From an uncultured Pseudomonadota bacterium (GTDB taxonomy: Bacteria > Pseudomonadota > Gammaproteobacteria > Burkholderiales > JALYOK01), in the NCBI GenBank assembly GCA_902826775.1, contig CADEHE010000009.1, positions 1 through 64,000 on the forward strand: 64,000 nt of DNA. The letters are read 5' to 3'. The translations under genes were made by a program, and so were the position numbers. The notes under the pieces are model-generated. The model was not told the origin of the DNA. It was given only the letters and a program-made list of their open reading frames with translations, and searched no databases. Shown piece after piece: positions 2,977 through 52,050 of the stretch (positions within the stretch are counted from its first letter, which is position 1; each line of letters begins with the position of its first letter).

Positions 2977-2984
2977 TGCTTTGC

Positions 2985-12089: not shown

Positions 12090-12143
12090 ACCGCCACCTG
12101 ACTGATAAATGAGAGCTGAGAGTTGTTTCGGAAGATCGATCGA

Positions 12144-12998: not shown

Positions 12999-13016
12999 GA
13001 CTTGACTCCTGCTTTC

Positions 13017-14693: not shown

Positions 14694-14695
14694 GG

Positions 14696-16834
14696 CTAGT
14701 CGAACCAAGACATGATGCCGATGCGGTTACCGCGGATTACGAGCGACTCGCGCTGCACCGGGCGCACTTCGATGACACCACCGCTCGCTTCCACGCCTTC
14801 GGCAGCGCTGAAAGCCGCGCCTTCGGCGTAGGCGGTGCCATTGACGGTGAGCTTGCCGCTGCTCGCCGTGAACGATCCACCGACGTCAGCCGCGTATACT
14901 TGTGCCCAGGTGTCGCCGAACCACGCCTTCATGCCGTGGTTGCGACCGATCGAGCTGTAGCCGGCCACGCCGCGCGCCGTGACCTTGGGTGCAGTCAGCG
15001 TAATGTCGTTAAGCGCCAACACACGGCCGCCGGTGTTCGAGATCGCTTCGCCGGCGGAGAAGCCGATATCGCGTGCTGCGCTGACCTCGCCGCCGAGCAC
15101 TTCGACGTGGCTGTCGGCGCGCGCACGGCAGAACAGCACGTTGCACCTGCGTTCGAAGTGCGCGCTGCCGGTCGCTAGGCCGATGTTGTCGATGCGCGCA
15201 GTCGCGCCAAAGCGTACGTCGCCGGCATCGGCGTAGATGTTGCCGCCGTGGTTGGTGATGTTTGCGGCTTCGATGACGACGTCATTGCCGGCTTTGAGGA
15301 AGGCTTCGGTGTGCGTTCCGGTCAACCGTCCGTAGTTGACGCTGAATCCCGATTCACGCACCGGCAGCCCGAGCCAGTTGTGATCGTGTTCACGATAGGC
15401 TTGCACTTCGCCGCTGGCCACCTCACCGCTGCGCGCGACTGCGTTCACGACATCACCACCGGCACTCAGGATCAGGTTCGCCGCCGCCAGCATGCGCGCG
15501 CTGTCATTGCGGATGTCACCTTTGGCTTCCAGGCGAACATCGCTCGCACCGGCATAGATCACTGACGGCTGCACCGCCGCATCGTCACTGGCGTTGTAAA
15601 TCGCACCGCCGGCTTTTATCGTCACCGCCGCGCCATCGGCCGCGGCCGCGTTGCCCTGAATGAGGCTGCCGACGTTGCGCACGTCGCCCGCACTGTCGAT
15701 CAGCACGCTGCCTTGCGTGGCGATCGTGCTGGATTTCATCGCGGCGGCGTTGCGCTGCGTGAACGTGCCCGCGCGGATCACCACATCGCCGCCGGCCGCG
15801 AGTTCAGCCGCGTTCAGTTCCACCGCGCCAGCCGCTTGGATGGCGATTGATCCACTATCGCTGTGCAAACGCGAACTGCGTTCCGCGGTACCTTCGACGA
15901 CGACTGCCGCCGCCGCCACATCAACGTGGCGCGCGGCACGCACGCTGCCGCTCGCCACGAGCACTTCACCGCTCGCGTTCAGGATGAAATCGCCGACGTT
16001 GGCGTACAACTCGCCGGCGTTGTGCACACCGGCGCCGCGATCGGTGACGGCGATCTCGATTTTGCCCGCGGCGAGACTGCCGAGCGGGGTGATGTCGACC
16101 AGGACCGCGTTCGCGTTCGACGTATCGCCGCCCTCATATTCGATCCAAGGCGTCAAGTTGTCGGTCGGCGAAACGGCGGCGTCGATCACGGCTTTGGAGT
16201 CGCCCGCGACCACGCGTATGCGCGCATCCGCGCGCGAAACCGTATTGCTGACCGGACCGTTGACACGCAATTGCTTCGCGATCAACTCCAAACTGTTGAA
16301 CGCGCCGCTCAAACCGGCTGGACCAATCTCGATCGCGCCTCGATTCGTCGTCAGCACGACATCGCGTTGCGGCACACCGGGCGCGATATCGAAATCGTTG
16401 AATTGCACGCGCCCGGTGGACAGGGCCACGTTGCCGGTGTTGGCGAATGTGCCTCCGTTTACCGTGATGCCGTTCGGATTGGCGATGATTACGTTCGCGC
16501 GCGGACCCGTGACCGAAATAGGACCCTCGATCAAGCTCGGACGTGTGGAATTTACTTCGTTGATGATGACGCGGGCCTGCGCCGTACTATTGGCGAACTC
16601 CAGCCCGGGCTTGCCGACGTTGAAGTCGAGGTAAACGTTGTGAGATACGCCGGCTACGGTCGGCGCAACGTTGACAATGGCTTGGCCGTTCGCCCCGCTG
16701 AACACGCTTGTGACGGTGCTAGCGTCTGGGACAACCTGCGCGTTAGCCACGCTCAGATGACAGCACAGCGCCACCCAAATGACACGTTGATCCGATGTAG
16801 ATTGTTTTAAGCGCCCTTTTTTCTCGGTCTTCAT
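14696..16834 (-). CDS. Short TpsA exoprotein with haemagglutination/TPS domain (712 aa)
   Basis: A signal region (VALCCHLSVANAQ) is followed by a TPS domain with NPNGITVNG near residue 118 and FHA-type repeats (GDVRNVGSLI, GGDVVIRAG and similar). The C-terminus ends SLVIRGNRIGIMSWFD. It lacks a pretoxin or toxin region, so it looks like a complete small filamentous adhesin rather than a CdiA. It is the first gene of the minus-strand operon and its stop overlaps the tpsB start region. A pair of cysteines near 570 (NVLFC) is unusual in FHA repeats. It could also be the remnant of a longer TpsA, but the stop is followed directly by an intact tpsB. Confidence 0.85.
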   Translation of the reverse strand: MKTEKKGRLKQSTSDQRVIWVALCCHLSVANAQVVPDASTVTSVFSGANGQAIVNVAPTVAGVSHNVYLDFNVGKPGLEFANSTAQARVIINEVNSTRPSLIEGPISVTGPRANVIIANPNGITVNGGTFANTGNVALSTGRVQFNDFDIAPGVPQRDVVLTTNRGAIEIGPAGLSGAFNSLELIAKQLRVNGPVSNTVSRADARIRVVAGDSKAVIDAAVSPTDNLTPWIEYEGGDTSNANAVLVDITPLGSLAAGKIEIAVTDRGAGVHNAGELYANVGDFILNASGEVLVASGSVRAARHVDVAAAAVVVEGTAERSSRLHSDSGSIAIQAAGAVELNAAELAAGGDVVIRAGTFTQRNAAAMKSSTIATQGSVLIDSAGDVRNVGSLIQGNAAAADGAAVTIKAGGAIYNASDDAAVQPSVIYAGASDVRLEAKGDIRNDSARMLAAANLILSAGGDVVNAVARSGEVASGEVQAYREHDHNWLGLPVRESGFSVNYGRLTGTHTEAFLKAGNDVVIEAANITNHGGNIYADAGDVRFGATARIDNIGLATGSAHFERRCNVLFCRARADSHVEVLGGEVSAARDIGFSAGEAISNTGGRVLALNDITLTAPKVTARGVAGYSSIGRNHGMKAWFGDTWAQVYAADVGGSFTASSGKLTVNGTAYAEGAAFSAAEGVEASGGVIEVRPVQRESLVIRGNRIGIMSWFD

Positions 16835-36276: not shown

Positions 36277-36882
36277 ATGGCTTCAGAAACGCAGAATATG
36301 TCGTCACCGCTGGACGCGGTCGATCTCCACATTCTCGATCGCTTGCAGCGCGATGCGCGCATCGCCAACGTCGATTTGGCCAAGCAGGTGCACTTGTCGC
36401 CGTCGCCTTGCTTAAGCCGCGTGCGGCGCTTGGAACAAAGCGGCATCGTCAAGCAGTACGTTGCGCTGCTCGATCCGCGCCGGCTCGGCTTGACGGTGAG
36501 CGTCTTCATCCAGGTGAGCTTGGAAAAACAAGTCGAGAGCGCACTGGAAGTTTTCGAAAACTCCATCGGCGGCCGCCCTGAAGTGATGGAGTGTTATCTG
36601 ATGACCGGCGATGCCGATTACTTGCTGCGTGTAGTCGTGCCCGATTTGCAGTCGCTGGAGCGATTCATCCTCGATCACTTGACCAAAATCCCGGGGGTCG
36701 CGAGCATCAAGTCGAGCTTCGCTTTGAAGCAAGTCAAGTATCAGACGGCGTTGCCGCTAGATCACGTCGATCGTAGTGGCGATGCGCGCCTGGTGTCTAC
36801 AGTGCAACCGGCTACAAGTCAGCGGCGGCGTGACGCCGTTAAGTCGGCGCGAGCGCGCGGCGCAAGCAAAGGACGCGGGTAA
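36277..36882 (+). CDS. Lrp/AsnC family transcriptional regulator (201 aa)
   Basis: An N-terminal winged helix-turn-helix ([43 protein letters not shown]) leads to a C-terminal RAM/AsnC ligand-binding domain ([47 protein letters not shown]). A basic, Arg/Ser-rich tail of about 40 residues is longer than usual for Lrp and may bind DNA or be disordered. It is divergent from aceE with a perfect inverted repeat directly upstream. The ligand is probably an amino acid. No good ribosome-binding site precedes this ATG. One at 36298 is an alternative. Confidence 0.9.
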
Positions 36883-37055: not shown

Positions 37056-37083
37056 TTGACAGTGCACCACCCTAGCTTATAGC
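37056..37083 (+). promoter_or_regulatory. Sigma-70-type promoter candidate of the NRPS cluster
   Basis: A perfect TTGACA (-35, 37056-37061), a 16-base spacer and TATAGC (-10, 37078-37083). Transcription would start near 37090, leaving a leader of about 10 bases before the first ATG (37101), or nearly 40 bases if the ATG at 37128 is used. Confidence 0.5.
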
Positions 37084-37100
37084 ATCCACAATCAGGATCG

Positions 37101-38291
37101 ATGTTGATTGACATAAAATGGCACTTAATGGCACTTCCAAAGCTAAAGTCTCCGTTCGATTTAGTTCGCTACTTTCTTCACGCCCGACGTCAACCGCACA
37201 GCAAGTCTATTGGGCGCCAGTTAAGGGAGTTGGTTAGTTTGCGCCGCGGACGCAATCGGCTAGGATTCAGCGAGTATTTCGACTACAGCTTATACGACCA
37301 TGACCGTTTTCCCGACGATGTAGCGCGCACTTTCGTCGGTTACAAAGTCGACGGACCGCTCATGGAAGCGGTCAACTCCTTCAAGTGGCGTGCAGCTGAC
37401 GAGGACAAGTTGCTGTTTTCGACGTTGCTGCACATGTTCGGGTTGCCTCACCCAAAGCTTTATGCATTTTACTGGACACGTGCCCGGCCAACGCTGAATG
37501 GTGTGCCTTGCATTGTGAATCCTGAGGAGATGATCGATTTTTTACGCGAGCGCATGCCCTATCCGTGCTTTTCTAAGCCCGTCGACGGCTATCGCAGCGT
37601 TGGCGCCGTTGCAATTACCGACTACGACCGCGCGCAGGACAGCTTGGTGTTTCTAGATGGTACGCGGCAGCGCGTACCCGACTTCGTCAAAGCGCTGCCG
37701 GCCCCGTATAAGCAAACTGAGCCGCGCGTGTTTCATGGGCACCTGTTTCAAGAGTTGCTAAGGCCGAGCCGTGAAGTGCTGGATATCGTGCCGGCAACTG
37801 GCTTGTCGACGCTTCGCTTGGTATTGCTGTGTGACACCGATCCGCCGGAATTGTTTCGCTCGGTCTGGAAGATTCCAATGGAAGGCAATATGGCCGATAA
37901 CTTCTGGCGCCAGGGAAATCTGTTAGTGGACATCGACCCAAACAGCGGCATCTTGGGTCGCGCGATTCGATCGCTGAACGACGGATTCGAGACTGTGGCA
38001 GATGAACGCAGCGACAAATTTCATTTGGCGGGTAAGAGGGTACCGAACTGGGAAGCCGCCGTGGCCGCGTGCCAGCAGGCTGCTTCGTTATTTCCAGAGA
38101 CGCATTGTCAGCATTGGGATGTCGCGCTGTGCGACCAAGGTCCAATATTGATTGAGTTGAATGCCATCGGCGACCTCGCGTTGATTCAATCGGTCTCGCG
38201 CTCCGGTGTGCTGGATCAGCGTTTTGACACTTTTCTTCAACGCATGCGGGTCATTTGGGATCGCGATGGTCCGCGTGCACCTCGCCCCTAG
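37101..38291 (+). CDS. ATP-grasp enzyme, sugar-transfer-associated type (396 aa)
   Basis: The C-terminal half shows an ATP-grasp fold of the ATPgrasp_ST kind as I recall it: PCFSKPVDGYRSVGAVAI, FVKALPAPYKQTEPRVFHGHLFQELL, RLVLLCDTD, GRAIRSLNDGFETV and HWDVALCDQGPILIELNAIGDLALIQ (the ELN metal site near the end). The N-terminal 100 residues are basic. ATP-grasp ligases form amide or peptide-like bonds through acyl-phosphates. As first gene of the NRPS cluster it probably ligates an amino acid or amine to the product or a precursor, but this is inference. The start could be the ATG at 37128. Confidence 0.75.
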   Translation: MLIDIKWHLMALPKLKSPFDLVRYFLHARRQPHSKSIGRQLRELVSLRRGRNRLGFSEYFDYSLYDHDRFPDDVARTFVGYKVDGPLMEAVNSFKWRAADEDKLLFSTLLHMFGLPHPKLYAFYWTRARPTLNGVPCIVNPEEMIDFLRERMPYPCFSKPVDGYRSVGAVAITDYDRAQDSLVFLDGTRQRVPDFVKALPAPYKQTEPRVFHGHLFQELLRPSREVLDIVPATGLSTLRLVLLCDTDPPELFRSVWKIPMEGNMADNFWRQGNLLVDIDPNSGILGRAIRSLNDGFETVADERSDKFHLAGKRVPNWEAAVAACQQAASLFPETHCQHWDVALCDQGPILIELNAIGDLALIQSVSRSGVLDQRFDTFLQRMRVIWDRDGPRAPRP

Positions 38292-38320
38292 TCGAATTGG
38301 CAATCGTACCGCTGACGCGC

Positions 38321-39940
38321 ATGGTTGATGCGTTGAACGATTTCGGCCAACTTGGCCTACTGGCGAATCTTGATGCCTTGCTTGCCACTGGCGTCGATAG
38401 CCGCGGTTCGCTTGTGCTGCGGACCAAAGCGAATCGTTATCACTGCACGATGGCGCCGCGGCCACACCTAGTACCAATGGGGTCTTGCACCGCATCCACG
38501 ATTTCGGAGCTTGGCTATCGTTGCGCCGAGCAGACACTGCGCCGATTGCGCGCAGTTAGTCCGGGCGCCGAACTGCAGACCGCTATCGAAGAGAGTTTTC
38601 GCGGCATGCGCGCAGACCTACGCCACATGCTGGCGCGCGGTCAGCTAGGAAATCTGAGCGTGCTAATGACGCCTTCGGGCACTGACGCGGAACTGATCGC
38701 CGTCCTGTTTGCATCGATTGGCCATGATCGGCGCATTTGCAACATCATCGTGGGCACCAATGAACTGGGCAGCGGCACGTTGATGGCATCCAGCTGCCGA
38801 TTCTTTGACGAGTTCACGCCCGCAGGTCGCACCGTGACCATAGGTGAACCGGTCGATGCGGCGCTCAGCGATCGAATTGATTGCATCGAGCTCGCTTTAC
38901 GTGACCCTGGGGGCTTAGCGCGCAGCACGGAAGATATCGACGCCCAGATTAACGAAATTGTGGAAGAGCGGGTTGGGTTAGGGCAGCACGTGTTGCTGCA
39001 TGTAACTGCGCACAGTAAGACCGGAGCGCATGCGCCAAGTCTGAGTCTAGTAGCGCAACTCAAACAAAAACACGGCGATCATATCGACATCGTGGTCGAC
39101 GCTGCTCAGGGCCGTTTCAGCCGGCGCGGGCTGTTGCGTATCTTGCAACAAGGCTATTTGGTCATCATCACGGGATCTAAGTTCTACGGCGGCCCGCCGT
39201 TCGCAGGAGCGCTGCTTATACCCGAGCAGTTCCGCGCCCGAATCGATGCCTTACCCTCTTTGCCGTCAGGATTCGCGCATTTCTTGACGCGCGCTCAGAT
39301 GCCCACGAGTTGGAAGAGATTGCGCGCGTCATTGCCGCAAACAAGTAATCTTGGGCTGTTGCTGCGTTGGTCCGCTGCGATCGAAGAAATGCGCCGCTAT
39401 TACGCTATTCCATCGAGTTTACGCTTAGCCGTGTTACGGGCTTTCGAGCGGCTTGCACCAGAAGTGTTCGGCACATCATCAAGCATTCAAATTGATGCCG
39501 TATCACCGCCGATTATTTCTGATGACTACGATCGCCTGTTGCAATCCAAAACGACCGTGTTTACTTTTCGGCTATGGGACGACTCGCGGCAGTGCTACTT
39601 TCCGCGTGAAGAACTAAAGACCATTTACGACTGGATGGATACCGATCTGTCCCGCAGCGTGGACCAGCTCGGTCCGGTGGCGCGTGATGCAATGGCTACT
39701 TTGTTCCAGATCGGGCAGCCGGTGCATTTAGGTCGCGCAACCCAAGGCGACATAGCGGCATTGCGCATTGCGAACGGCGGCGTTCTCATCTCGAAGATTG
39801 CAGAGGATCTTGAGCTGGGCGCGACGCTCGATGCGCGCATCGACTGGCTTAGGGAACAATTGGTTCGCGTCAAGCTTAAACTCGAAGCCAGCGCAGAGCA
39901 CTTTAGCAACGTTTTGCAGCGCTCAAAGCAAATTGCCTAG
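38321..39940 (+). CDS. Fold-type-I PLP-dependent enzyme, aminotransferase/desulfurase-like (539 aa)
   Basis: The visible PLP signature is LMTPSGTDAELIAVLFAS (phosphate-binding turn), DIVVDAAQGRFSRRG (the Asp that pairs with the pyridine N) and ITGSKFYGGPPFAGALL with the Schiff-base Lys near residue 287. This places it in the class V aminotransferase/Cys-desulfurase-like superfamily. At about 540 residues it is longer than typical members (about 400) and has an additional C-terminal domain. I do not recognise a named family. It lies between the ATP-grasp and the PLP decarboxylase genes, spaced by 29 bases and 1 base, so it should modify an amino-acid precursor of the NRPS product. A TTG at 38297 is an alternative start. 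Confidence 0.7.
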   Translation: MVDALNDFGQLGLLANLDALLATGVDSRGSLVLRTKANRYHCTMAPRPHLVPMGSCTASTISELGYRCAEQTLRRLRAVSPGAELQTAIEESFRGMRADLRHMLARGQLGNLSVLMTPSGTDAELIAVLFASIGHDRRICNIIVGTNELGSGTLMASSCRFFDEFTPAGRTVTIGEPVDAALSDRIDCIELALRDPGGLARSTEDIDAQINEIVEERVGLGQHVLLHVTAHSKTGAHAPSLSLVAQLKQKHGDHIDIVVDAAQGRFSRRGLLRILQQGYLVIITGSKFYGGPPFAGALLIPEQFRARIDALPSLPSGFAHFLTRAQMPTSWKRLRASLPQTSNLGLLLRWSAAIEEMRRYYAIPSSLRLAVLRAFERLAPEVFGTSSSIQIDAVSPPIISDDYDRLLQSKTTVFTFRLWDDSRQCYFPREELKTIYDWMDTDLSRSVDQLGPVARDAMATLFQIGQPVHLGRATQGDIAALRIANGGVLISKIAEDLELGATLDARIDWLREQLVRVKLKLEASAEHFSNVLQRSKQIA

Positions 39941-39941
39941 C

Positions 39942-41222
39942 ATGGATTGGAACACACCGATCGACTTAAATCGCATTAGCCACGCCTGGCGGCAAGGGCG
40001 CGCGCTGGGATTGGTTCGTGAAGACGCCACCGCCGTGCTCTTCCATGATTTGCTGCGCATGGGCGCACGCGTGGCGGAGTTGCAAGCGGTTTTCCCGCCA
40101 AGAACCGTCCACGCGCTCGCGATTAAGGCCAATCCATTGGTCCAGGTGTTGCGCTGCGCGGTCGGGGCGGGGGCAGGACTGGAGGCGGCCTCGCTGGAGG
40201 AGGTGTGGCTGGCGCAGGCGGCCGGTTGTCCGCCGAGTCGAATCATTTTCGATTCTCCCGCCAAGAGCACGCAAGAGATTCACCGCGCGATTGAACTTGG
40301 CGTCTGGATAAATGCGGACAACACCGATGAGTTGGCCCGCATCGAGCAAGCACTAACGCTTCGGCGCGGCTATCGAGGCCGCATTGGCTTGCGTGTCAAC
40401 CCGTTGGTTGGTGAAGGCAAGATCGCGATGACCAGCGTCGGTGGGCATCAGTCGAAATTCGGCGTGCCGGTAAGTGATGCTGCTGCATTGCTGGATTTGT
40501 ATCGCCGGTACCACTGGCTGACCGGCATTCACGTGCATGTTGGTTCGCAAGGTGCACCTTTGCAGCAGCTGGTCGCCGCCGCGCGCGTGGCCTTCGATCT
40601 GCGCGCGTCGATCGAGAACGTAACAGGTAGAGCAATTGAATTTATTGACCTCGGCGGCGGGCTGCCGGCGCGTTACGACATTGATGCGGATCCGCCCACC
40701 CCGCGAGACTACGTGGCCGCGTTGCGCGCTGCCGTTCCCGAATTGTTTGACTTCCAAGGCGTTCTCCTAACCGAGTTTGGACGTGCGGTGCAAGCATCGT
40801 GTGGGTGGGCGGTGTCGCGCGTTGAGTACGTTAAGACCGTGGCAAATCAGTGCTGCGCGGTGTTGCACTTGGGCGCGGATTTTTTGATGCGTCCGGTTTA
40901 TCGCCCGGCAGAGTGGCGTCACCGTTTTTACGTGCTGGATCAGGCGGGTCGGCCTAAAGCGGGCGACGCGCGACCGGTACAACTGCTAGGGCCGCTATGT
41001 TTTGCCGGCGATATCGTCGCGCCTTCTGTACTGTTGCCACCGATAGAAACCGATGACCTGGTGGTCATCGGTGATACCGGCGCGTACACATTGAGTTTGT
41101 GGTCGCGCCACTGCAACCGTGCGATTCCGATGGTGATTGGCGTGCGTGATACAGCAGCCGAGCGGCTAGAACCCCTCAAGGCGCGTGAGACCGCAGCCGA
41201 AATTGTTGCATTATGGTCGTAA
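39942..41222 (+). CDS. PLP-dependent decarboxylase, DapDC/ODC fold-type III family (426 aa)
   Basis: An alanine-racemase-type barrel with HALAIKANPLVQVLR (the PLP Lys near residue 62) is followed by GLEAASLEEV and IIFDSPAKS. Further on are GLRVNPLVGEG, HVHVGSQG, FIDLGGGLP, LLTEFGRAV in place of the usual EPGR, and GPLCFAGDIV, whose Cys (about residue 353) donates across the dimer. DTGAYT follows. These show a decarboxylase of the diaminopimelate/ornithine group, as found in several siderophore pathways. The ATG is one base after the stop of the previous gene. It probably converts a diamino acid into a building block for the neighbouring NRPS or ATP-grasp enzyme (inference). Confidence 0.85.
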   Translation: MDWNTPIDLNRISHAWRQGRALGLVREDATAVLFHDLLRMGARVAELQAVFPPRTVHALAIKANPLVQVLRCAVGAGAGLEAASLEEVWLAQAAGCPPSRIIFDSPAKSTQEIHRAIELGVWINADNTDELARIEQALTLRRGYRGRIGLRVNPLVGEGKIAMTSVGGHQSKFGVPVSDAAALLDLYRRYHWLTGIHVHVGSQGAPLQQLVAAARVAFDLRASIENVTGRAIEFIDLGGGLPARYDIDADPPTPRDYVAALRAAVPELFDFQGVLLTEFGRAVQASCGWAVSRVEYVKTVANQCCAVLHLGADFLMRPVYRPAEWRHRFYVLDQAGRPKAGDARPVQLLGPLCFAGDIVAPSVLLPPIETDDLVVIGDTGAYTLSLWSRHCNRAIPMVIGVRDTAAERLEPLKARETAAEIVALWS

Positions 41223-41437
41223 GGCACGTACCTTTGCTCGCAGATCCATCGCTCCAGATCTGGAGCATGCGCGCCCGTTGTCAGAACTCATCCGCCAAAC
41301 CACTCGGGCAGAATCGCGATGGAAAGTGTTTGCGATTGTTGCTTGCGATCGTGAATACGATCGCCAACTGCGTGGTTATCAACCGCGCGAACTGAAACGG
41401 ATAGCGTGCCGCGTTGTTCGGTGCGCAGGGTGAGACG
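41223..41437. other. Gap inside the NRPS cluster
   Basis: These 215 bases separate the decarboxylase and NRPS genes, the only sizeable gap in the cluster. Two short plus-strand frames have no recognisable features. It may hold a secondary promoter, but none is convincing. Confidence 0.4.
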
Positions 41438-44400
41438 ATGAACGCGAAATTCATAAGCCTAGGAAAGCCGGAAGCGGAAACCGCAAAGAATGAAACGACA
41501 ATTCACTCACTAGTCAGCGCTGCTTCGCGACGCTACCCATCTGCAACCGCGGCGGTATATGAGGATCAGCAGCATAGCTACAGTGAATTGGAGGCGCGCA
41601 GCGATCATCTCGCGCTGCGACTGCAAGCGTTGGGCGTCGTACCGGGCGCGCTAGTGGGGCTCTACCTCGAGCGCTCGCTCGAGATGCTGATCGGCGTGCT
41701 CGGGGTACTAAAAGCTGGCGGCGCCTATGTGCCGCTTGATCCGGCCTATCCAGCCGATCGCATCGCTTACATTCTGAACGACGCGAAACTCCACACCATA
41801 CTCACGCAATCAAAGCTCTTGCCGACGCTACCGGAGCATTCCGTCCAGACGATTTGCCTGGATGTGAGCGCATCGCCGAGCACTGCTGGGGCGGCGCCGC
41901 TGCCTCTGGCCAGCGGTGATGACTTGGCGTATGTGATTTACACATCGGGCTCTACCGGGTGGCCCAAAGGTGTGCAAATTCCGCATAAGGCCGTCGTCAA
42001 CTTTTTGCGCAGTATGCAGCGGCAGCCTGGCATCGATCAAAGCGATCGTCTTTTGGCCGTGACGACTCTGTCGTTCGACGTCGCTGGGCTTGAGCTTTAC
42101 CTGCCCTTATCTATGGGTGCTCAAGTCGTTATCGCCAGCCGCGAAGCGGCAAGCGACGGCGCAGCACTAGCGCGTTTGATTGAAGCTCAACAAATTTCCA
42201 TGATGCAAGCAACACCGGCCACTTGGCGATTGTTGCTTGATGCGGAATGGCCGGGTCGTGCGACGATGCGCATCCTTTGCGGAGGCGAAACGCTTACTCG
42301 CGATCTTGCGGACAAACTTCTGCCGCTCTGCCGCGAACTGTGGAATCTATACGGACCAACCGAGACGACCATTTGGTCAACAGTGCATAGGGTAACGCAC
42401 GGGCAAGGTCCGGTACCGATAGGTCACCCGATTGCCAATACGGACGTGCACATCCTCGACCAGCAGAGCCGCCCTGTGCCCAACGGCCATACGGGAGAGC
42501 TTTTCATCGGCGGTGAGGGACTGGCGCGGGGCTATTGGAATCGGCCGGAGCTAACCGCTGAGCGCTTTGTTGCGCACCCGTTTGTTCCCGGCGCGCGGCT
42601 ATACCGCACCGGAGATCTGGCCAAAGGGCTTCCAGACGGAGCGCTTGAACACCTTGGGCGCGTTGATTTCCAAGTGAAGGTGCGCGGCTTCAGAATTGAG
42701 TTGGGTGAAATCGAAGCCGCGCTAGAGCGTCACGCTAGCGTGCGTCAGGCCATCGTACTTGCACGTGAAGATGTTCCGGGGGATAAGCGTTTAGTCGCCT
42801 ACGTGCTTGCTGCCAAGGGGCAGGCGCCCGTGGCAAGGGAGCTGCGCGCCAAACTAGCCAAGGACTTACCCGAGTATATGGTCCCCGCTATGTACGTGGT
42901 TATGGAAGCCTTTCCCTTGACCCCGAACGGCAAGGTTGACCGCAAGGCCTTCCCGCCACCGGTTGCGGAGCGTCTTGCCCTCTCCGAAAATTACGCCGCC
43001 CCGAGCGACGATGTTCAGAGTCGGTTAGCGGCGATCTGGGCGGAAGTGCTGCGGGTGGACACGGTTGGCATTCACGACGACTTCTTTGAGCTAGGCGGCG
43101 ACTCGCTCAAAGTCGCGCAAGTGGCCACTCGGATTCGTGCGAGTTTCGGCGTTGAACTGCCGCTGCGCACCGTGTTCGAACAGCGAACTATCGCCAAACT
43201 GGCGCCTGCGCTTGCGGCGCTCGACGGCACCGCGCTGCAGGCCAGCGAGCTGCCGCTCACCGCTGTTAAGCGCGGCGGGGCGATCCCGCTATCCTTCGCG
43301 CAAGAACGTGTGTGGTTCATCCATCAACTCAATCCAGACAACCTTGCCTATAACTTTCAATCGACAATTGCATTTGACGGCAAGCTGGATCTGAAGGCGC
43401 TCGAGCGGGCCCTTGACGAAGTGTTGAGGCGTCACGAAAGTTATCGCACGACTTTTCCGACGATTGATGGCAAACCGGTGCAAATCGTGCACCCGCACAC
43501 GCCGTTAGCACTACGCGTGGTGGACTTTTCGGATCATCCTGAGAGCGCCCGCCGTGCCGCAGCCAAGGCGTGGTGCGACAACGAGTTTCAGCACCGCTTT
43601 GACCTTGCCCGTTTGCCGCTCGTGCGCTGGACTCTGCTGCGCTTTAGCGACCAGGAAAATGTGCTCGTACACATGGAGCATCATCTGGTTCACGATGGCT
43701 GGTCGTTCAACGTTTTCTTACGCGAACTGGTTCCCTTGTATACGGCGTTTCGCGCTGGGCGGCCCTCACCGTTGCCTGCGCTGACCGTACAGTTTGCTGA
43801 GTTTGCGACTTGGCAGCATGAATGGATGCGAGGCGCGGTATCTGATCGTCAGTTGGACTATTGGAAAGTGCGCTTCCAAACCACGCCGCCACCGCTTGAA
43901 TTGCCTATGAAAGGCGCGCGGCCTTCGTTGCAGAGTTTTCGCGGCACTTCGCTGCGGCCGGAAATTCCGCTCGATTTGTGCAATCGCTTGCGCGCGCTAA
44001 GTCGCCAACAGGGCAGCACCCTTTTCATGACGATGTTGGCGGGTTTCGTGGCCTTGTTGCATCGCTACACGGGCGAATCGGACATCGGCGTCGGGACCTT
44101 TTTTGCCAATCGCCGGTTGCCGGAGTCGGAGAGTTTGATCGGCATGATCCTCAACAACGTGGTCGTGCGCACCACCCTGGAGAGCGATCCGAGTGTGCGA
44201 CAGCTGATCGGTCAGGTGCGCGATGTTCTACTGGAGAGTGCGAGCTACCAAGACGTGCCCTTTGATCGCGTGGTAGAGGCGGTGCAACCTAAGCGCGATC
44301 CCAGCCTAAACCCGCTGTTTCAGGTGATGTTCAGCTTTCACGACGAACCGATGCCAGAGGCAAAAATGCCGGAGCTGGAAGTCAAGTTGACCCCGGTGAT

Positions 44401-47218
44401 CAGCAATGGGTCGGCTAAGTTTGATTTGGGCGTGATCGGTATCCCCCACTCGGCGCAGGTGCTTGGGCTCGCTCAAGGATCCGATCAAGATGGTCTGACA
44501 ATGATCTGGGAGTACAACACCGATCTGTTTGACACTGCCACCATCGCTCGCATGGTTGCGCATTACATCAACCTGCTGCGCGCGATGGTGGACGATCCTG
44601 AATCGCGCATATCGGTGCTGTCCCTCCTGCAGCCGCAAGAGCGAGAAGAGTTGCTGTTTGCGCGCAACAGCACGCGCCGGGAGTTTGCGACTGGCGATCG
44701 GTTGTGCGATATGTTTGCTGAGCAAGCCAGGCGCACGCCCGACGCTTGTGCGGTGGTTTTTGAGTATCAAGCGCTCAGTTACCAAGAACTAGATCGCCGT
44801 TCCACGCAACTTGCCAATTACTTGATCGAGCAAGGCGTCGCGCCGAATGTCGTGGTGGGTGTTTGCGTCGAGCGCTCGCCGAACATGTTGATCGCGCTCC
44901 TGGCCATCCAGAAGGCCAGCGGTGCGTACGTGCCCATCGATCCGAGCTTTCCGGCGGATCGGCAAGTGTTCATGCTGCAAGATGCAGGTATCCAGTTGCT
45001 GGTCACAGAAGCAGATCTTTGCGCAAGCCTGCCGATTTGCGATGTCAAGCTCATCCACTTGGCTGGCGACGCGCAAGCAATTTCCGCTCGAGCGGAACGG
45101 CTAGGCGAAGCGCCGCGCGCCGGAGCGGAGGATCTCGCTTACGTCATCTACACCTCCGGCTCGACCGGTCGGCCCAAGGGCGTGCGCATTCCAAACCGTG
45201 CCCTGACGAACTTTCTCCGAGCAATGCGCGATGAGCCTGGTCTCAGCGCTGATGACCGCTTGGTCGCGGTGACGACGCTCTCCTTTGATATTGCGGGTTT
45301 AGAGATGTATTTGCCGCTGGTCGTTGGTGCGCGCGTCGTGATTGCAAGCCGAGCCGTTGCCACAAACGGGGAAGCTCTGGCGGAACTGCTAGCCAGTTCG
45401 GGCGCAACCATAATGCAAGCGACGCCGACCACCTGGCAATTGTTGATAGATACCGGCTGGAAAGGGGGCGCGCATTTCACAGCGTTGTGCGGTGGCGAAG
45501 CGATGCCGCGGGCGCTCGCAGAGCAGCTACTGCCGCGCGTGAGAAAACTGTGGAACATGTATGGTCCAACCGAAACCACTATCTGGTCTACGGTGCATCA
45601 AGTTCGCTCCGGCAGCGGTCCGGTGCCGATTGGTAAACCGATCGACAATACGCAGATCTACCTGCTTGATCGACATGCGCAACTGGTACCGCCCGGCGTG
45701 GTCGGCGAACTGTGCATCGCCGGAGCGGGGGTGGCGCTGGGTTACCTGAACCGTCCTGAGCTCTCGGCGGAAAAGTTTTGCGCGAACCCGTTTGATGCTA
45801 CGGGTCAGTCGAAGCTCTACCGCACGGGGGATCTGGCGCGTTATCGCGCGGACGGCGCGCTTGAATGTCTGGGTAGAACAGATCATCAAATTAAGCTGCG
45901 CGGTTTTCGCATCGAACTTGGGGAAATAGAGGCTTTGCTGGATCGCACGCCAGGTGTTGCGCAATCGATCGTAGTGGCGCGCGAAGACGCACCCGGCGAC
46001 CAACGTCTGATCGCTTATATCGCGCCAGCGCAAGGTGCAAGCTTCGACCCTGCGCAGCTTACGGCCAGCTTGCGGCAAAGCTTGCCCGACTACATGGTGC
46101 CAACCGTGTGGGTGGAGTTGATTACTGTGCCCCTGACTGCAAACGGCAAAATAGATCGACGCGCCTTGCCTGCCCCTTCCGGCGAGCGCTCGGCCGCGGC
46201 CAAGTCATACCTTGCGCCTCGCAACGCGCAAGAACGTTTGCTGGTCGCGATTTGGGAAGAACTGCTGGGGACAGCACCGATTGGAATACGCGATGACTTC
46301 TTTGCCGTCGGTGGACATTCGTTGTTGGCAGTGCGTTTGATTGCTCGTATCGAGCAAAAGACCGGACAAAAGGTCTCGTTGGCCGCATTGCTGCAAGGAC
46401 GCACCATCGAGCACGTCACCGCGCTGCTACGAAGCAACACCCAAACGCAGAGCCGAGCTGGCTTCATCGTGCGGCAAAGCAGCGGTTGCAAGCCGCCCTT
46501 CTTCGCAATTGGCAGCCATCCGCGTTATGCGGACATGCCGGCTCGCGTCGCACCCGATCGTCCCTTCTATCAGCTGGACGTCTACTCGCTGCTCGCCGAG
46601 CGCATGCAGAAGCGCTTGCGGCCGCTCAAGACGGTAGAGGCATTAGCGGAGCATTACTTGGAGCTGCTGGCGGAAGTCCAGCCGAATGGGCCGTATTGTC
46701 TTGGCGGTGGTTGCGAAGGTGCTTATATCGCGTACGAGATGGCGGTCCGGCTGCAGCGGATGGGACACGAATTGGGGTGCCTCATTATGTGGATTCCACC
46801 GGCCCTAAACGAATCCAAAGGTCTCAGTTTGCGCCGTTTCCCCACCTACCTCTCTGCCTTGCGATGGCGGTACCTGCTGAGCGATGCCGCGCTGCGTTAT
46901 GGCGGCCGCGCAGCTTGGCGAAACATCTGGGCACACGAGCGCATCGAATACCAAATTCTCAAGGCGTTGTGTGATTACGCACCCAAGCATAATTATGAGG
47001 GTGACATTACATTGATTCGTACTGCCGAGAGCCCGCCTCATTCACCTCCTAACATCAATCGCGAATGGGCCGATCGCGCTATGCAAGGTGCTCAAGTGCA
47101 CATCGTGCAAGGTAATCACAGCAATTGGCTTTACGAGCACTTTGATGATTTCACTCAGGTCATCCGCGATCGGTTAGAGGTCGAGCGGACGACCGCTGGC
47201 CCCGCTTCGCAACCGTGA
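41438..47218 (+). CDS. Nonribosomal peptide synthetase, A-T-C-A-T-TE (1926 aa)
   Basis: A bimodular synthetase. A1 has YTSGSTG near 167 and NGKVDRK near 496. T1 has LGGDSL near 553. C has HHLVHDGWS near 747, an intact HHxxxDG. A2 has YTSGSTG near 1237 and NGKIDRR near 1568. T2 has VGGHSL near 1624. The C-terminal thioesterase carries LGGGCEGAYIAYEMA near 1756 (Cys in the nucleophile elbow) and GNHSNWL as the likely catalytic His. Initiation lacks a C domain and there is no epimerisation or methylation domain, so the expected product is a dipeptide, cyclised or hydrolysed by the TE. Hand-aligned specificity residues are DVLAICLIWK (A1) and DILAACMIWK (A2): similar to each other, and matching no code I know. 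The ATG follows AGGG at seven bases. An upstream TTG is unlikely. Confidence 0.93.
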   Translation: MNAKFISLGKPEAETAKNETTIHSLVSAASRRYPSATAAVYEDQQHSYSELEARSDHLALRLQALGVVPGALVGLYLERSLEMLIGVLGVLKAGGAYVPLDPAYPADRIAYILNDAKLHTILTQSKLLPTLPEHSVQTICLDVSASPSTAGAAPLPLASGDDLAYVIYTSGSTGWPKGVQIPHKAVVNFLRSMQRQPGIDQSDRLLAVTTLSFDVAGLELYLPLSMGAQVVIASREAASDGAALARLIEAQQISMMQATPATWRLLLDAEWPGRATMRILCGGETLTRDLADKLLPLCRELWNLYGPTETTIWSTVHRVTHGQGPVPIGHPIANTDVHILDQQSRPVPNGHTGELFIGGEGLARGYWNRPELTAERFVAHPFVPGARLYRTGDLAKGLPDGALEHLGRVDFQVKVRGFRIELGEIEAALERHASVRQAIVLAREDVPGDKRLVAYVLAAKGQAPVARELRAKLAKDLPEYMVPAMYVVMEAFPLTPNGKVDRKAFPPPVAERLALSENYAAPSDDVQSRLAAIWAEVLRVDTVGIHDDFFELGGDSLKVAQVATRIRASFGVELPLRTVFEQRTIAKLAPALAALDGTALQASELPLTAVKRGGAIPLSFAQERVWFIHQLNPDNLAYNFQSTIAFDGKLDLKALERALDEVLRRHESYRTTFPTIDGKPVQIVHPHTPLALRVVDFSDHPESARRAAAKAWCDNEFQHRFDLARLPLVRWTLLRFSDQENVLVHMEHHLVHDGWSFNVFLRELVPLYTAFRAGRPSPLPALTVQFAEFATWQHEWMRGAVSDRQLDYWKVRFQTTPPPLELPMKGARPSLQSFRGTSLRPEIPLDLCNRLRALSRQQGSTLFMTMLAGFVALLHRYTGESDIGVGTFFANRRLPESESLIGMILNNVVVRTTLESDPSVRQLIGQVRDVLLESASYQDVPFDRVVEAVQPKRDPSLNPLFQVMFSFHDEPMPEAKMPELEVKLTPVISNGSAKFDLGVIGIPHSAQVLGLAQGSDQDGLTMIWEYNTDLFDTATIARMVAHYINLLRAMVDDPESRISVLSLLQPQEREELLFARNSTRREFATGDRLCDMFAEQARRTPDACAVVFEYQALSYQELDRRSTQLANYLIEQGVAPNVVVGVCVERSPNMLIALLAIQKASGAYVPIDPSFPADRQVFMLQDAGIQLLVTEADLCASLPICDVKLIHLAGDAQAISARAERLGEAPRAGAEDLAYVIYTSGSTGRPKGVRIPNRALTNFLRAMRDEPGLSADDRLVAVTTLSFDIAGLEMYLPLVVGARVVIASRAVATNGEALAELLASSGATIMQATPTTWQLLIDTGWKGGAHFTALCGGEAMPRALAEQLLPRVRKLWNMYGPTETTIWSTVHQVRSGSGPVPIGKPIDNTQIYLLDRHAQLVPPGVVGELCIAGAGVALGYLNRPELSAEKFCANPFDATGQSKLYRTGDLARYRADGALECLGRTDHQIKLRGFRIELGEIEALLDRTPGVAQSIVVAREDAPGDQRLIAYIAPAQGASFDPAQLTASLRQSLPDYMVPTVWVELITVPLTANGKIDRRALPAPSGERSAAAKSYLAPRNAQERLLVAIWEELLGTAPIGIRDDFFAVGGHSLLAVRLIARIEQKTGQKVSLAALLQGRTIEHVTALLRSNTQTQSRAGFIVRQSSGCKPPFFAIGSHPRYADMPARVAPDRPFYQLDVYSLLAERMQKRLRPLKTVEALAEHYLELLAEVQPNGPYCLGGGCEGAYIAYEMAVRLQRMGHELGCLIMWIPPALNESKGLSLRRFPTYLSALRWRYLLSDAALRYGGRAAWRNIWAHERIEYQILKALCDYAPKHNYEGDITLIRTAESPPHSPPNINREWADRAMQGAQVHIVQGNHSNWLYEHFDDFTQVIRDRLEVERTTAGPASQP

Positions 47219-47856
47219 GCGATCAGATCTCGATCGCGGGGCTTGATAATGTTGTGCTCTTGCTCGCGCCTATCGGAGACTTTAGTAGCCTCCTGTCGGA
47301 CGACGAAGCACGAATCGTTGCGGCTGCAATCGCAGGACGGCGGCGCGAGTATTCCACCGGGCGCGCGCTTGCGCACCGCGCTTTTGAAAGATTAGGCATA
47401 GCAGCAACGACACTGCCAACGGGGCCTGTTGGTCAACCGCTGTGGCCGCAAGGAGTGGTCGGCAGCATAAGCCATACGAGCGAACAAGCTATTTGCGCTG
47501 CAGCTTCTCAGGCAAATTACCAAGCGATTGGGGTCGACCTTGAACATGCTGGCCGAGTAACGCCAGATCTCGTCGAGCTATTGATTACCCGCGTTGAGCA
47601 GCAGCGCTACGAGCACCTTGACTTAACGCTGATCTTCAGCGCAAAGGAAGCCTGCTACAAGTTGTTACATGCCTTGGTCGGAGAGTTCGTAGATTTCCTT
47701 TCGGTGGAAATTGCATTGGACGTTGGCGAGCAACGCTTTTGTGCGCGGTACCTTGGCGAGAAGCGGAGAAACGCTGTGATTACCAAAGCACGCGGCTACT
47801 ACCGTAGTCTTGGCAATCACTGGCTTACTTGCATCGTGCTGCCGGTGGCCTCTTAG
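47215..47856 (+). CDS. 4'-phosphopantetheinyl transferase, Sfp/EntD type (213 aa)
   Basis: The GTG start overlaps the NRPS stop (GTGA), so translation is coupled. Family motifs: STGRALAHRAFERLG, VGSISHTSEQAICAA, GVDLE near residue 106 and FSAKEACYKL near 141 (Mg2+ and CoA binding, the WxxKEAxxK equivalent). It transfers phosphopantetheine from CoA to the Ser of the two NRPS carrier domains. A dedicated PPTase inside the cluster suggests the cluster is a self-contained unit suited to horizontal transfer. Confidence 0.92.
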   Translation: MSDQISIAGLDNVVLLLAPIGDFSSLLSDDEARIVAAAIAGRRREYSTGRALAHRAFERLGIAATTLPTGPVGQPLWPQGVVGSISHTSEQAICAAASQANYQAIGVDLEHAGRVTPDLVELLITRVEQQRYEHLDLTLIFSAKEACYKLLHALVGEFVDFLSVEIALDVGEQRFCARYLGEKRRNAVITKARGYYRSLGNHWLTCIVLPVAS

Positions 47857-48423: not shown

Positions 48424-50766
48424 ATGAACTTTAAGAAGACAATCCTTGCTACAGCGATCGGCCTCGCTTTCGGTACGTCAGCAACGGTCCTGTGGGCAAA
48501 TCCGGTCAATAACTCGAATGATCCGAACGGTTCGAACACCCAAACCGCTACGGCGACTTCGGCCCAAGACAACAACAGCGGCGCACAGGCGAATGAGTAT
48601 GCCAACGCCAACAACAACTCGAACAACCCGAACAATTCGGACAATTCTTCGAATCGGGATAACGAGCAATGGACCGACAACACCAATAACTCAGACAACT
48701 CGTCCAATCGCGACAACGAGCAATGGACTGATAACTCCAACAACTCAGACAACTCCAACAACTCTGATCAGAACAATGACAAGAGTGTCAACAATTCTGA
48801 CCAGAACAACAACAAGAGCACCAACAACTCCGGCAGCGGCGATGCGTGGCTAGATGGCTCGAACCACCAAGGCAATGCCATTGGCAACAACGGCGCGACG
48901 GTCACCAGCGTCGTTGCTATCAGCAACCTAAACGCAACGGTGACTGACAACACCGTCAGCAACATCGGTAATGTCCTTACCAGCAGCGGCAACAACGCAA
49001 ACGCCAGCGGCGGCCAAGGCGGCCAAGGCGGCGTCGGCAACGGCGGCACGGGCAACAGCGGCAGCCAAACGGCTAACGGCGGCAACGGCGCTGAAGGCGG
49101 CGCGGGCGCAGTCGGCGCAGCAGGTGCAGCAGGCGGTTCGAACGGCAGCAACACCAACTCGCAAACCAACGGCAACGCGGGCAACGGCGGCGATGCCAAC
49201 ACCGCAGGTGGTGGTCAAGACGCCAGCGGCAACAGCAACAACGGCGGCAATTCCGGCGCCTCGACCAACGCTAACGGCGGCACCTCCAACGGTGGCCAAG
49301 GCGGTCAAGGCAATGGCGGCACGGCGAATGCCAACGGCGGCAACGGCGGCGTAGGCGGCGCGGGTGGCAACACCGGTGACGCGGCTGGCGGTGCTGGCGG
49401 TGCAGGTGGCGGCACGGGCAATGCAGCTGGCGGTGCAGGCGGCAACGGCGGCGCAGGTGGCAACACCGGCAACGCGAACGGCGGTTCGGGCGGTAGCGGT
49501 GGCAGCACCGGTGACGCAGTCGGCGGTGCAGGCGGCGCGGGTGGCAGCAACGGGAACGCAGCCGGCGGCGCTGGCGGCGCGGGCGGCAACACCGGCAACG
49601 CTAATGGCGGCAGCGGCGGCAACGGCGGCAACACGGCCGATGCGAACGGTGGCGCAGGTGGCGCGGGTGGCGCAGGCGCGGCGGGTAACGGCAACGGCGG
49701 TACCAATGGTGGCAACGGCACGGGCTCGGGTGGCAGCAACCAGGCAGACGGTAGCGGCACCGGCGGCGGCACCAACAGCCAAGGCAATGGCAGCGCCAAC
49801 GGCGGCGGTGCTGGCAACGACCAAACCGGCGACAACAACGGTGGCGCAGGCGGAGCCGGTGGCAGCACGGCTGGCGCGGGCGGTAACGGCGGCGGCACGG
49901 GCGGCAACGGCTCGGCGCAAGGCGCGGGCACAGCGGGTAACGGTACCGCCACCGGTACGGGCACGGGCGGCAACGGTGCGACGGCTGGTAACGGCGCAGG
50001 CGGCACCAACAACGGCGGTGCAGGCGCGGGCGGTGCGACGGGCAGCAATGCCGGTGGCGCAGGCTCAACGGGTGCCGCGGGCACCAACAACGCTGGCGCG
50101 GGCGCGACCGGTGCAACTGGCAGCAATGCTGGCGGTGCGGGTGCAACTGGCGCGGCGGGCACCAACAATGGTGGCGCAGGTGCAGTAGGCGCAGCGGGTG
50201 CGGCTGGCACCAACAACGGTGGCGCAGGCGCGACCGGTGCGGCTGGCAGCAATGCCGGTGGCGCAGGCGCAGCAGGTGGCACGGGCGCGGCAGGCACGGC
50301 TAACGCCGGTGCTGGCACGGGCGGCACGGGCACGGGCGCTTCCGGTGGCAACGCCAACAACCAGACCGGCAACGGTGGTAACGGCGGCACGGGCACGGGC
50401 GGCAGCAACACCGCCACCTCCAATGGCGGCGCTGGCGGCAACAACGGCGGCAACTCCAACACCCAGAGCATCGGTAACGCCGGCAACGGCGGCAACGGTG
50501 GCGCCGGCGGTAACGGCGGCACGGGTGGCAACGGCGCAGCTGGCGGCAGCAACACTGCCAACGGCGGCACGGGCAATGGCGGCGCAGGTGCGGTCGGCGG
50601 TGCTGGCGGCACGGTGACGGTGACTGCAGGTTCGTTCGATATGTCGAACACCATCAGCGCCAGCTTCACCAACGGTGCCGGCATTATGGTTAACAGCCAA
50701 AACACCGGTATCGCTGCTTCCGTCATGCAAAGCGTGAACGTTCAGGCCAACCTGACCGTCCGCTAA
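48424..50766 (+). CDS. Exported Gly/Asn-rich repeat protein, candidate functional-amyloid fibre subunit (780 aa)
   Basis: A signal peptide (FKKTILATAIGLAFGTSATVLWA) is followed by an Asn/Asp/Ser-rich low-complexity segment with an imperfect tandem repeat around NNSDNSSNRDNEQWTDN. A conserved-looking block near 147-195 contains VVAISNLNATVTDNTVSNIGNVLT. About 540 residues of GGx and GAxGAxG repeats follow. The last 45 residues are non-repetitive (SFDMSNTISASF, GIMVNSQNTGIAASVMQSVNVQANLTV). A GGAG site precedes the ATG. Position first in a sigma-54 operon with a C39 peptidase and a FapF-like pore suggests the FapC role: extracellular fibre. The repeat type differs from Pseudomonas FapC as I know it. 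Long antisense frames across it are repeat artefacts. Confidence 0.75.
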   Translation: MNFKKTILATAIGLAFGTSATVLWANPVNNSNDPNGSNTQTATATSAQDNNSGAQANEYANANNNSNNPNNSDNSSNRDNEQWTDNTNNSDNSSNRDNEQWTDNSNNSDNSNNSDQNNDKSVNNSDQNNNKSTNNSGSGDAWLDGSNHQGNAIGNNGATVTSVVAISNLNATVTDNTVSNIGNVLTSSGNNANASGGQGGQGGVGNGGTGNSGSQTANGGNGAEGGAGAVGAAGAAGGSNGSNTNSQTNGNAGNGGDANTAGGGQDASGNSNNGGNSGASTNANGGTSNGGQGGQGNGGTANANGGNGGVGGAGGNTGDAAGGAGGAGGGTGNAAGGAGGNGGAGGNTGNANGGSGGSGGSTGDAVGGAGGAGGSNGNAAGGAGGAGGNTGNANGGSGGNGGNTADANGGAGGAGGAGAAGNGNGGTNGGNGTGSGGSNQADGSGTGGGTNSQGNGSANGGGAGNDQTGDNNGGAGGAGGSTAGAGGNGGGTGGNGSAQGAGTAGNGTATGTGTGGNGATAGNGAGGTNNGGAGAGGATGSNAGGAGSTGAAGTNNAGAGATGATGSNAGGAGATGAAGTNNGGAGAVGAAGAAGTNNGGAGATGAAGSNAGGAGAAGGTGAAGTANAGAGTGGTGTGASGGNANNQTGNGGNGGTGTGGSNTATSNGGAGGNNGGNSNTQSIGNAGNGGNGGAGGNGGTGGNGAAGGSNTANGGTGNGGAGAVGGAGGTVTVTAGSFDMSNTISASFTNGAGIMVNSQNTGIAASVMQSVNVQANLTVR

Positions 50767-50822
50767 GCTTCGGCGAGTGCAGTTTGTTGTTAGCTGTTAG
50801 TAATAGATAAGTAGTGCTGGAA

Positions 50823-50852
50823 GGATCGAGGGGCCTGCGGGCTCCTCGATCC
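50823..50852 (+). promoter_or_regulatory. Strong stem-loop between the fibre gene and downstream genes
   Basis: A 13-bp stem (one G-T pair) with a TGCG loop and no T tract follows the fibre stop by 57 bases. It resembles mRNA-stabilising or attenuating hairpins that let the first gene of a pilin or amyloid operon be expressed above the rest. Confidence 0.6.
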
Positions 50853-50906
50853 AGCCAGATTGGTAACGCTCTCACACATCAAAAACACTAAGTAATGGAG
50901 AACAAC

Positions 50907-51344
50907 ATGACATTAAGAACGTGTTTGGCGGCGAGTGTCTTCCTGGCGCTTAGCAGCACCTTGCCCGCGTTCGGTGACTGGTCCGGTGTCATTGTTCAGA
51001 CCGAGACGCAAGTGCAAGCTGCGGATTTGCAGCTGCAGCCCGAGGCGCCTGCTGCAACGCAAGAGGAAGCAGCCGGTGGCAGCTTCGAAAATGAAATGGG
51101 CGTGCAAGCGCTCGACCTCGACGAGAATCGCGGCCGCGAAGGCACGACGACGCTGAACCAAGTCAACAAGATGACGCTCGACGCAGTCATGACCAACAAC
51201 GTGACGGAGAACGTGGTTAGCGGCAATAACGTAATCACCGATGGATCGTTTGCCGGAACCAACGGCTTCCCCATGGTGATACAGAATACCGGCAGCAACG
51301 TTATTATTCAGAACGCGACCATTCTGAACCTAAACGTCAAGTAA
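50907..51344 (+). CDS. Small exported protein of the amyloid-like locus (145 aa)
   Basis: The ATG at 50907 has GGAG six bases upstream and starts a good signal peptide (CLAASVFLALSSTLPAFG). An ATG at 50895 lacks a site. The mature protein has an acidic, Ala/Glu-rich linker. The C-terminal half is Asn/Thr/Val-rich with alternating hydrophobics (TLDAVMTNNVTENVVSGNNVI, then FPMVIQNTGSNVIIQNATIL), typical of beta-stacking subunits. The VIQNT..N..I pattern recurs in the protein at 52070. It is a candidate minor subunit or nucleator (FapB/FapE-like role by position, not by clear homology). Confidence 0.65.
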   Translation: MTLRTCLAASVFLALSSTLPAFGDWSGVIVQTETQVQAADLQLQPEAPAATQEEAAGGSFENEMGVQALDLDENRGREGTTTLNQVNKMTLDAVMTNNVTENVVSGNNVITDGSFAGTNGFPMVIQNTGSNVIIQNATILNLNVK

Positions 51345-51363
51345 GCATCGGCTCGGCAGTCAA

Positions 51364-52050
51364 ATGAAGAATAATCTGAGCACAGCGCTGTTCGCGCTCG
51401 TGCTGATGTGCGGCGGCGCCGCGCGTGCGGGCACGGTAGAGCTCACGCAAAACGGCGCTTGGTATTCCGTTCCCATCACAACGCTCAAGGAAGCGCGCTT
51501 CAAGCAAACGGTGCGGCAGCAGGAGGACTTCAGCTGCGGTTCGGCTGCGCTTGCAACCCTGCTCACCTATCACTACAACCGGCCGGTATCGGAGCGCGTG
51601 GTGCTCGAAGCCATGTTCGCGCGCGGCAATCAAGCGAAAATCAAGCGCGAAGGATTTTCGCTGCTCGATATGAAGACGTACTTGGAAGGTATCGGTTATA
51701 CGGCGAACGGTTTTCAGGCGCCGCTTGAGAAGCTTGTTGATACGACCACGCCGGCGATCGTGCTGGTGCGCGAGAACGGTTATAACCACTTCGTCGTGGT
51801 CAAAGGGTTAAACGAGCGCAAAGTGCTGGTTGGCGACCCGGCTATCGGCACACGCGTGGTGCCGCGCGAGCAGTTCAACCAGTTATGGACGAATGGAATC
51901 GTATTCGTCATTCATGGCAAAGGCGTCAAAGGCAGCTTCAACGCTTCGGCCGACTGGGCGATTCGTCCCAGCGCGCCATTGGGCGAAGCAATCGCCCGGG
52001 AAAGTCTGGCTAACATCACAGTATCGCGCTTTGGATCAGGCGACTTCTAG
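51364..52050 (+). CDS. Exported C39-family cysteine peptidase, FapD-like (228 aa)
   Basis: A signal peptide (TALFALVLMCGGAARA) precedes a C39 peptidase domain with catalytic Cys in EDFSCGSAALATLL, His in GYNHFVVVKG and Asp in VGDPAIGTRVV. C39 peptidases normally cut bacteriocin leaders inside ABC exporters. A free-standing periplasmic version is the hallmark of FapD in Fap amyloid operons. Here it probably processes or monitors the fibre subunits before export. It lies between the two small exported proteins on the same strand. Confidence 0.88.
   Translation: MKNNLSTALFALVLMCGGAARAGTVELTQNGAWYSVPITTLKEARFKQTVRQQEDFSCGSAALATLLTYHYNRPVSERVVLEAMFARGNQAKIKREGFSLLDMKTYLEGIGYTANGFQAPLEKLVDTTTPAIVLVRENGYNHFVVVKGLNERKVLVGDPAIGTRVVPREQFNQLWTNGIVFVIHGKGVKGSFNASADWAIRPSAPLGEAIARESLANITVSRFGSGDF

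Follow-up and report, generated by a model that had tools for sequence, protein, structure and literature searches.

Five genes on the + strand at positions 37101-47856 of the window (the whole 64,000-nucleotide stretch of DNA that was analysed) encode an ATP-grasp ligase, a PLP enzyme, a decarboxylase, an NRPS and a 4'-phosphopantetheinyl transferase (PPTase), as judged from their ORFs, from Pfam and NCBIfam matches and, for the PLP enzyme, from its fold and PLP-site residues. Three of these genes apparently represent an undescribed team of enzymes that is found again in many Proteobacteria, some of its parts being exchanged. Because the partners of the PLP gene are found again in other loci, the window can be regarded as joining a PLP/ligase/decarboxylase module that occurs repeatedly to an NRPS of its own. 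The interpretation put forward here, tentatively and as something less than an even prospect, is that of an undescribed widespread module in which the PLP family is constant, the ligase (an ATP-grasp of any of four types, or else an NRPS) and the decarboxylase (PF00282 or DapDC-like) are exchangeable, and which in this genome would be joined to its own NRPS for making a new class of decarboxylated peptide amide.

Organization of the gene cluster

The ATP-grasp gene (37101-38291) is followed by the genes for the fold-type-I PLP enzyme (38321-39940), the DapDC-like decarboxylase (39942-41222), the NRPS (41438-47218) and the PPTase (47215-47856). The open frame of the PLP enzyme begins with a TTG at 38255, and an ATG is found at 38321. 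The ATP-grasp and PLP genes are separated by 29 bp if the ATG is the start and overlap if the TTG is. The spacing between the PLP and decarboxylase genes is 1 bp, and the stop of the NRPS overlaps the start of the PPTase by 4 bp. These distances, with all frames on the + strand, bear out the description of five same-strand genes, several abutting or overlapping, that was given in an earlier sequence-only reading of this DNA. The weakest joint of the cluster is a gap of 215 bp between the decarboxylase and the NRPS (41223-41437, + strand), across which transcription from the first three genes may or may not continue into the NRPS half. An 82-aa ORF in the gap (41185-41433) has no supporting evidence. 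A sigma-70-like, promoter-like motif match, TTGACA-N18-TAGCAT, is located upstream of the first gene (37056-37085, + strand), but it is of positional interest only, because the region contains no more such matches than chance would give (5, against an expected 5.2).

The G+C content of the five-gene block is 55-60%, compared to roughly 60-65% in most of the flanking DNA. An Lrp/AsnC-type regulator is encoded on the same strand upstream of the cluster (36277-36882), and the genes farther upstream are housekeeping or catabolic (PDH E1, acyl-CoA dehydrogenase, GMC oxidoreductase). No exporter or resistance gene was found among the neighboring genes. Downstream is an unrelated secreted-protein set: a Gly/Asn/Ala-rich secreted protein of 780 aa, a secreted protein of 149 aa and a Peptidase_C39 protein are encoded consecutively at 48424-52050. 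This trio may be a Fap-type functional-amyloid set, in which FapD is a C39 protein. The - strand at 54-16834 carries a two-partner secretion locus with TPS-domain proteins of 3034 and 712 aa, a ShlB/FhaC-type transporter, a PPIC rotamase and a DUF637 hemagglutinin-type protein (54-2042).

The synthetase and its PPTase

The NRPS has 1926 residues and comprises two modules arranged as A1-T1-C-A2-T2-TE, all encoded on the + strand. The A1 domain (approximately 41510-42970) has the glycine-type code DVLQLGLIWK and is followed by the T1 carrier domain (43022-43204) with the motif LGGDS. The condensation domain (43280-44656) contains an intact HHLVHDG. The A2 domain (44690-46240) has the code DILQLGMIWK, also of the glycine type, and the T2 carrier domain (approximately 46265-46445) has the motif VGGHS. 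The C-terminal thioesterase (46463-47215) is related to the thioesterases of FAS and NRPS systems, yet its nucleophile is a cysteine, located in the sequence GGCEG (codon 46712-46714); a GNH histidine is found near its C terminus. The PPTase is of the Sfp/EntD type, with 4PPT_N and ACPS matches. With two A domains, two T domains (GGDS and GGHS), a C domain with HHxxxDG, a TE and a PPTase in place, the Pfam and NCBIfam domains and the intact motifs give the same domain order, and the same dedicated PPTase, as had been read from the sequence alone.

In PDB searches, 5u89, the Gly-activating DhbF module, is the best or second-best match among single A domains; the LgrA chains, which have two A domains, and the multi-domain 8xjz score higher. 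The NRPS shares Gly-type codes and this top single-domain match with Gly-activating modules of the DhbF type, but differs from them in that two modules of the Gly type follow each other, a starter C domain is lacking and the TE is of the Cys type. A code of the Gly type does not bind an A domain to glycine, as other substrates occur with it. The predicted product of the NRPS core, as far as the codes indicate, is a Gly-Gly thioester. The code of A2 has been printed as a Gly code (PMC12283262).

The condensation domain is the only one in the genome, and the PPTase is the only one of the Sfp type; the single other protein of the 4'-PPT superfamily is a 145-aa frame of AcpS size. Thus the cluster is complete in itself and, by its C domain, contains the only NRPS of the genome. 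No orthologue of the NRPS was found among the genomes of the order and the plasmids searched, where the best matches are 34-47% identical and mostly belong to larger assembly lines. At the DNA level, plasmid matches to the cluster are restricted to short NRPS motifs.

The ATP-grasp ligase

The assignment of the first gene product to ATPgrasp_ST (PF14397) is based on its score of 78.7 bits against a cut-off of 31.4, on Lys159, Asp340, Glu352 and Asn354, which are invariant in its relatives, and on its fold. An AF2 model (pLDDT 83) is closest in Foldseek to RimK, PsnB, Ddl and LysX/ArgX, all of which are carboxylate-amine ligases. The relatives of this ligase within the order are often encoded beside genes for an exosortase-A AMP ligase (TIGR03098) and a decarboxylase (TIGR03099), so that these enzyme classes are paired in nature in a second setting too. 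In loci L119, L121 and L123, ATPgrasp_ST genes, paired or single, are next to both. The library descriptions searched do not contain this link. These sets have the same three enzyme classes adjoining as the window, but their ligase is stand-alone, C and TE domains are lacking, no fold-I PLP gene was seen and the decarboxylase belongs to another clade.

The fold-type-I PLP enzyme

The PLP enzyme (P0001, 539 aa) has no profile match to any Pfam or NCBIfam family, and hence belongs to no named family of fold-I PLP enzymes. Its homologues, where searched with profiles, are likewise without a match to a PLP family. The protein has no match among PDB sequences, and a search of the PDB with its family gave only a sub-threshold cysteine desulfurase. 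An AF2 model based on 20 sequences has a pLDDT of 89. In Foldseek its fold is that of fold-type-I PLP enzymes (TM about 0.5), between the group II decarboxylases, SufS and Egt2. In an alignment of 23 sequences of the family, Ser119-Gly-Thr121 (SGT), Asp260 and Lys287 are invariant. This is what would be expected of the phosphate loop, the aspartate at the pyridine nitrogen and the Schiff-base lysine, respectively. The fold, taken together with the Lys, Asp and SGT residues of the PLP site, places the protein among the fold-type-I PLP enzymes, and there is good support for its being a functional member of that class. The overall fold and PLP-binding residues are those of the cysteine desulfurase SufS, the C-S lyase Egt2 and the group II decarboxylases, but the identity is 11-16%, with a TM of about 0.5, and the window protein has additional N- and C-terminal elements.

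Two relatives (L023:9085-11562 and L027:8025-10538) are fused to a C-terminal methyltransferase domain, which suggests that the product of the module is methylated in some lineages. The family members in loci L076, L085 and L087 have an N-terminal extension of roughly 200-300 residues, which in L087 has no Pfam match.

The DapDC-like decarboxylase

The third protein (P0002) has the Orn/DAP decarboxylase domains of the alanine-racemase fold, and its earlier designation as a DapDC-like decarboxylase is upheld; it is distinct from LysA. It scores 210 bits against the LysA model TIGR01048 (cut-off 297.9) and 139 bits against TIGR03099 (cut-off 478). Together with a gene from Simplicispira (locus L045) it forms one clade (100/99), apart from both LysA and TIGR03099; the branches of both proteins are long. 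The active-site cysteine loop is CFAGD in these two proteins, CESGD or CETGD in LysA and CTPLD in TIGR03099. The identity of a housekeeping lysA was rejected, as a separate true lysA is present on another contig (C22), the window protein has a clade of its own and its TIGR01048 score is below the cut-off. Outside the true DapDCs, BtrK (7ru7, 2j66) is among its closest solved relatives. It has been argued that members of the DapDC-derived clade other than DapDC or D-ODC serve specialised metabolism (PMC7857480).

Relatives on plasmids of Embleya, Streptomyces and Arthrobacter are 38-43% identical and have the loop C[FY][AS]GD. No homologues of the other genes of the module were found near them. 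In the two annotated records these actinobacterial genes (L138-L142) are named diaminopimelate decarboxylase, which is probably wrong. One of them adjoins an APC permease and is near a gamma-glutamyltransferase.

Recurrence of the PLP gene and its partners

Among 250 genomes drawn from the order, 31 besides the window's own (32 with it) contain relatives of the PLP enzyme with roughly 30-36% identity. When 398 genomes drawn from the phylum were searched with a profile, the family was detected in 25, again including that of the window, and further members are found on rhizobial plasmids. The neighborhoods of 44 loci other than the window were examined; because these loci are mutually related and were chosen by PLP homology, the counts that follow are not independent trials. 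An ATP-grasp gene of one of four types adjoins the PLP gene in 40 of the 44. Most loci have a TPR-containing ATP-grasp with a weak RimK match, three (L089-L091) a divergent Ddl-like one, two (L085 and L087) a double ATP-grasp similar to cyanophycin synthetase, and one (L086) an ATPgrasp_ST protein, 32% identical to the ligase of the window. In genome G579 the PLP gene is paired with an ATPgrasp_ST gene. Of the four loci that lack an ATP-grasp gene, two (L042 and L044, on rhizobial plasmids) have a giant NRPS in its place, followed directly by the PLP-family gene and then by a PPTase; L042 also contains a SagB-type dehydrogenase. The records of these two clusters give no product name.

An amino-acid decarboxylase, of fold I or fold III, adjoins the PLP gene in 35 of the 44 loci. 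It is of the PF00282 type in 34 of them, with diaminobutyrate decarboxylase as the nearest NCBIfam model. The remaining one is the Simplicispira locus, where a TPR-type ATP-grasp, the PLP enzyme and a DapDC homologue, 40% identical to that of the window, are encoded consecutively. In the tree the PLP protein of the window belongs to a 13-member group (95/90), in which the type of ligase varies between branches; its own position, on a long branch, has a support of only 84/82. The presence of the same partners across many families, with two classes of non-homologous replacement, is hard to explain by chance. The sequence-only reading had called the PLP enzyme a fold-I protein of unclear family. 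It does lie outside Pfam and NCBIfam, but it is no isolated oddity and defines a recurring module.

The set of five genes was found in no other sampled genome, and the closest matches to the synthetase reach an identity of no more than about 47%. Among 399 genomes of the order, none matches the decarboxylase at E<=1e-60. A search of 301 genomes from what is presumed to be the family of Simplicispira gave no hit, a weak result because that search had no positive control. The genome of the window is the sole representative of its family among those sampled, and a scan of genome contigs gave a single relative. The literature searched contains no description of the gene set, with the proviso that a subscription-only paper could be missed. 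With nothing close in about 400 genomes of the order, the PLSDB plasmids, NCBIfam, the PDB sequences and this literature, the cluster still appears to be uncharacterised, as first proposed. Clusters in which an NRPS is accompanied by PLP enzymes and ligases are already known as a kind. The part that merits attention is the unnamed PLP family with its exchangeable partners, of which we found no description in the libraries and papers searched.

Proposed pathway

The five genes may suffice by themselves for the biosynthesis of a small peptide amide that contains glycine, a proposal that we advance with some reserve. T1 and T2 would be primed by the Sfp-type PPTase, glycine would be loaded by both A1 and A2, and the C domain would create Gly-Gly on T2. 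The DapDC-like decarboxylase would convert an amino acid, or one that the ligase has already joined, to an amine, and the fold-I PLP enzyme would make or modify that amino-acid building block. The RimK/Ddl-fold ATP-grasp would make one amide bond off the assembly line. In the sixth step the Cys-type TE would free the dipeptide, either by passing it to the amine or by hydrolysing the thioester. The likeliest product would be a decarboxylated amino acid in amide linkage with a small peptide that contains Gly-Gly, and not a siderophore.

The order of the domains, the intact motifs, the Gly-type codes, the fold classes, the co-linearity of the genes and the recurrence of PLP, ligase and decarboxylase genes are supported at the level of sequence comparison. 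We infer the Gly-Gly core, the formation of the amine, the amide bond made by the ATP-grasp, the role of the PLP enzyme and the release by a Cys-type TE, as well as the order of the third to fifth steps, the amine acceptor, the PLP reaction and the product itself.

Alternative explanations

The gap of 215 bp would also suit two independent pathways lying side by side, the ATP-grasp, PLP enzyme and decarboxylase making one soluble metabolite and the NRPS with its PPTase another. Of the 44 other loci, 42 have the module or the PLP gene but no NRPS, as this explanation would have it. We nevertheless consider it rather doubtful, given the single strand, the low-GC block common to all five genes and the PLP-family genes that are directly beside NRPS genes on rhizobial plasmids. 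Another arrangement is suggested by the butirosin AHBA side-chain pathway, which has an ATP-grasp ligase (BtrJ), a DapDC-like PLP decarboxylase (BtrK) and a carrier domain (BtrI) in common with the window. Decarboxylation might then occur in the manner of BtrI/BtrJ/BtrK on an aminoacyl thioester held by a T domain of the NRPS, with the ATP-grasp loading or extending it, and the exosortase-A neighborhoods would share that logic. The solved structures of BtrK are among the nearest to the window decarboxylase outside the true DapDCs, BtrK decarboxylates Glu-S-BtrI (PMC7857480), and relatives of the window ligase in the order adjoin TIGR03098/TIGR03099 pairs. However, the decarboxylase clade is apart from TIGR03099 and LysA, with CFAGD in place of CTPLD or CESGD, the Simplicispira homologue has no NRPS or AMP ligase beside it, and the actinobacterial homologues are without these partners. 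The cluster lacks the BtrO/BtrV oxygenase genes and differs from the butirosin system in its two-module NRPS with C and TE domains, its extra fold-I PLP enzyme and its CFAGD loop. Carrier-bound decarboxylation is considered unlikely.

The sequence-only reading had seen siderophore-like logic in the combination of decarboxylase and ATP-grasp. Decarboxylases of this DapDC-derived clade are indeed found in the specialised metabolism of NIS siderophores (SbnH, FslC/FigC and AcsE, with vibrioferrin-like logic; PMC7857480). A search of the whole genome, in which positive controls were detected, gave no NIS (IucA/IucC-type) synthetase, and no receptor or transporter gene adjoins the cluster, just as that reading had stated. 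With no such synthetase and with an ATP-grasp of another family, the RimK/Ddl-fold ATPgrasp_ST, the siderophore-like logic is unsupported. Genes for making metal ligands are absent and both A domains are predicted to be for glycine, so that a siderophore is very improbable. It is equally hard to credit that the cluster is a decaying, non-functional remnant. Its lower G+C content and lack of relatives suggest recent acquisition, but all five frames are open and every key catalytic motif that was checked is intact.

Significance

If the reading as a recurring module is right, a PLP family that is named in no curated library searched is the mark of a pathway found repeatedly in lineages of the Alpha- and Betaproteobacteria type, the product of which has apparently never been reported. 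The swapping of ligase and decarboxylase around a constant PLP enzyme would then allow the PLP reaction to be deduced by comparing products. The cluster in the window, with its short two-module NRPS and guessable substrates, is a tractable place for finding that product.
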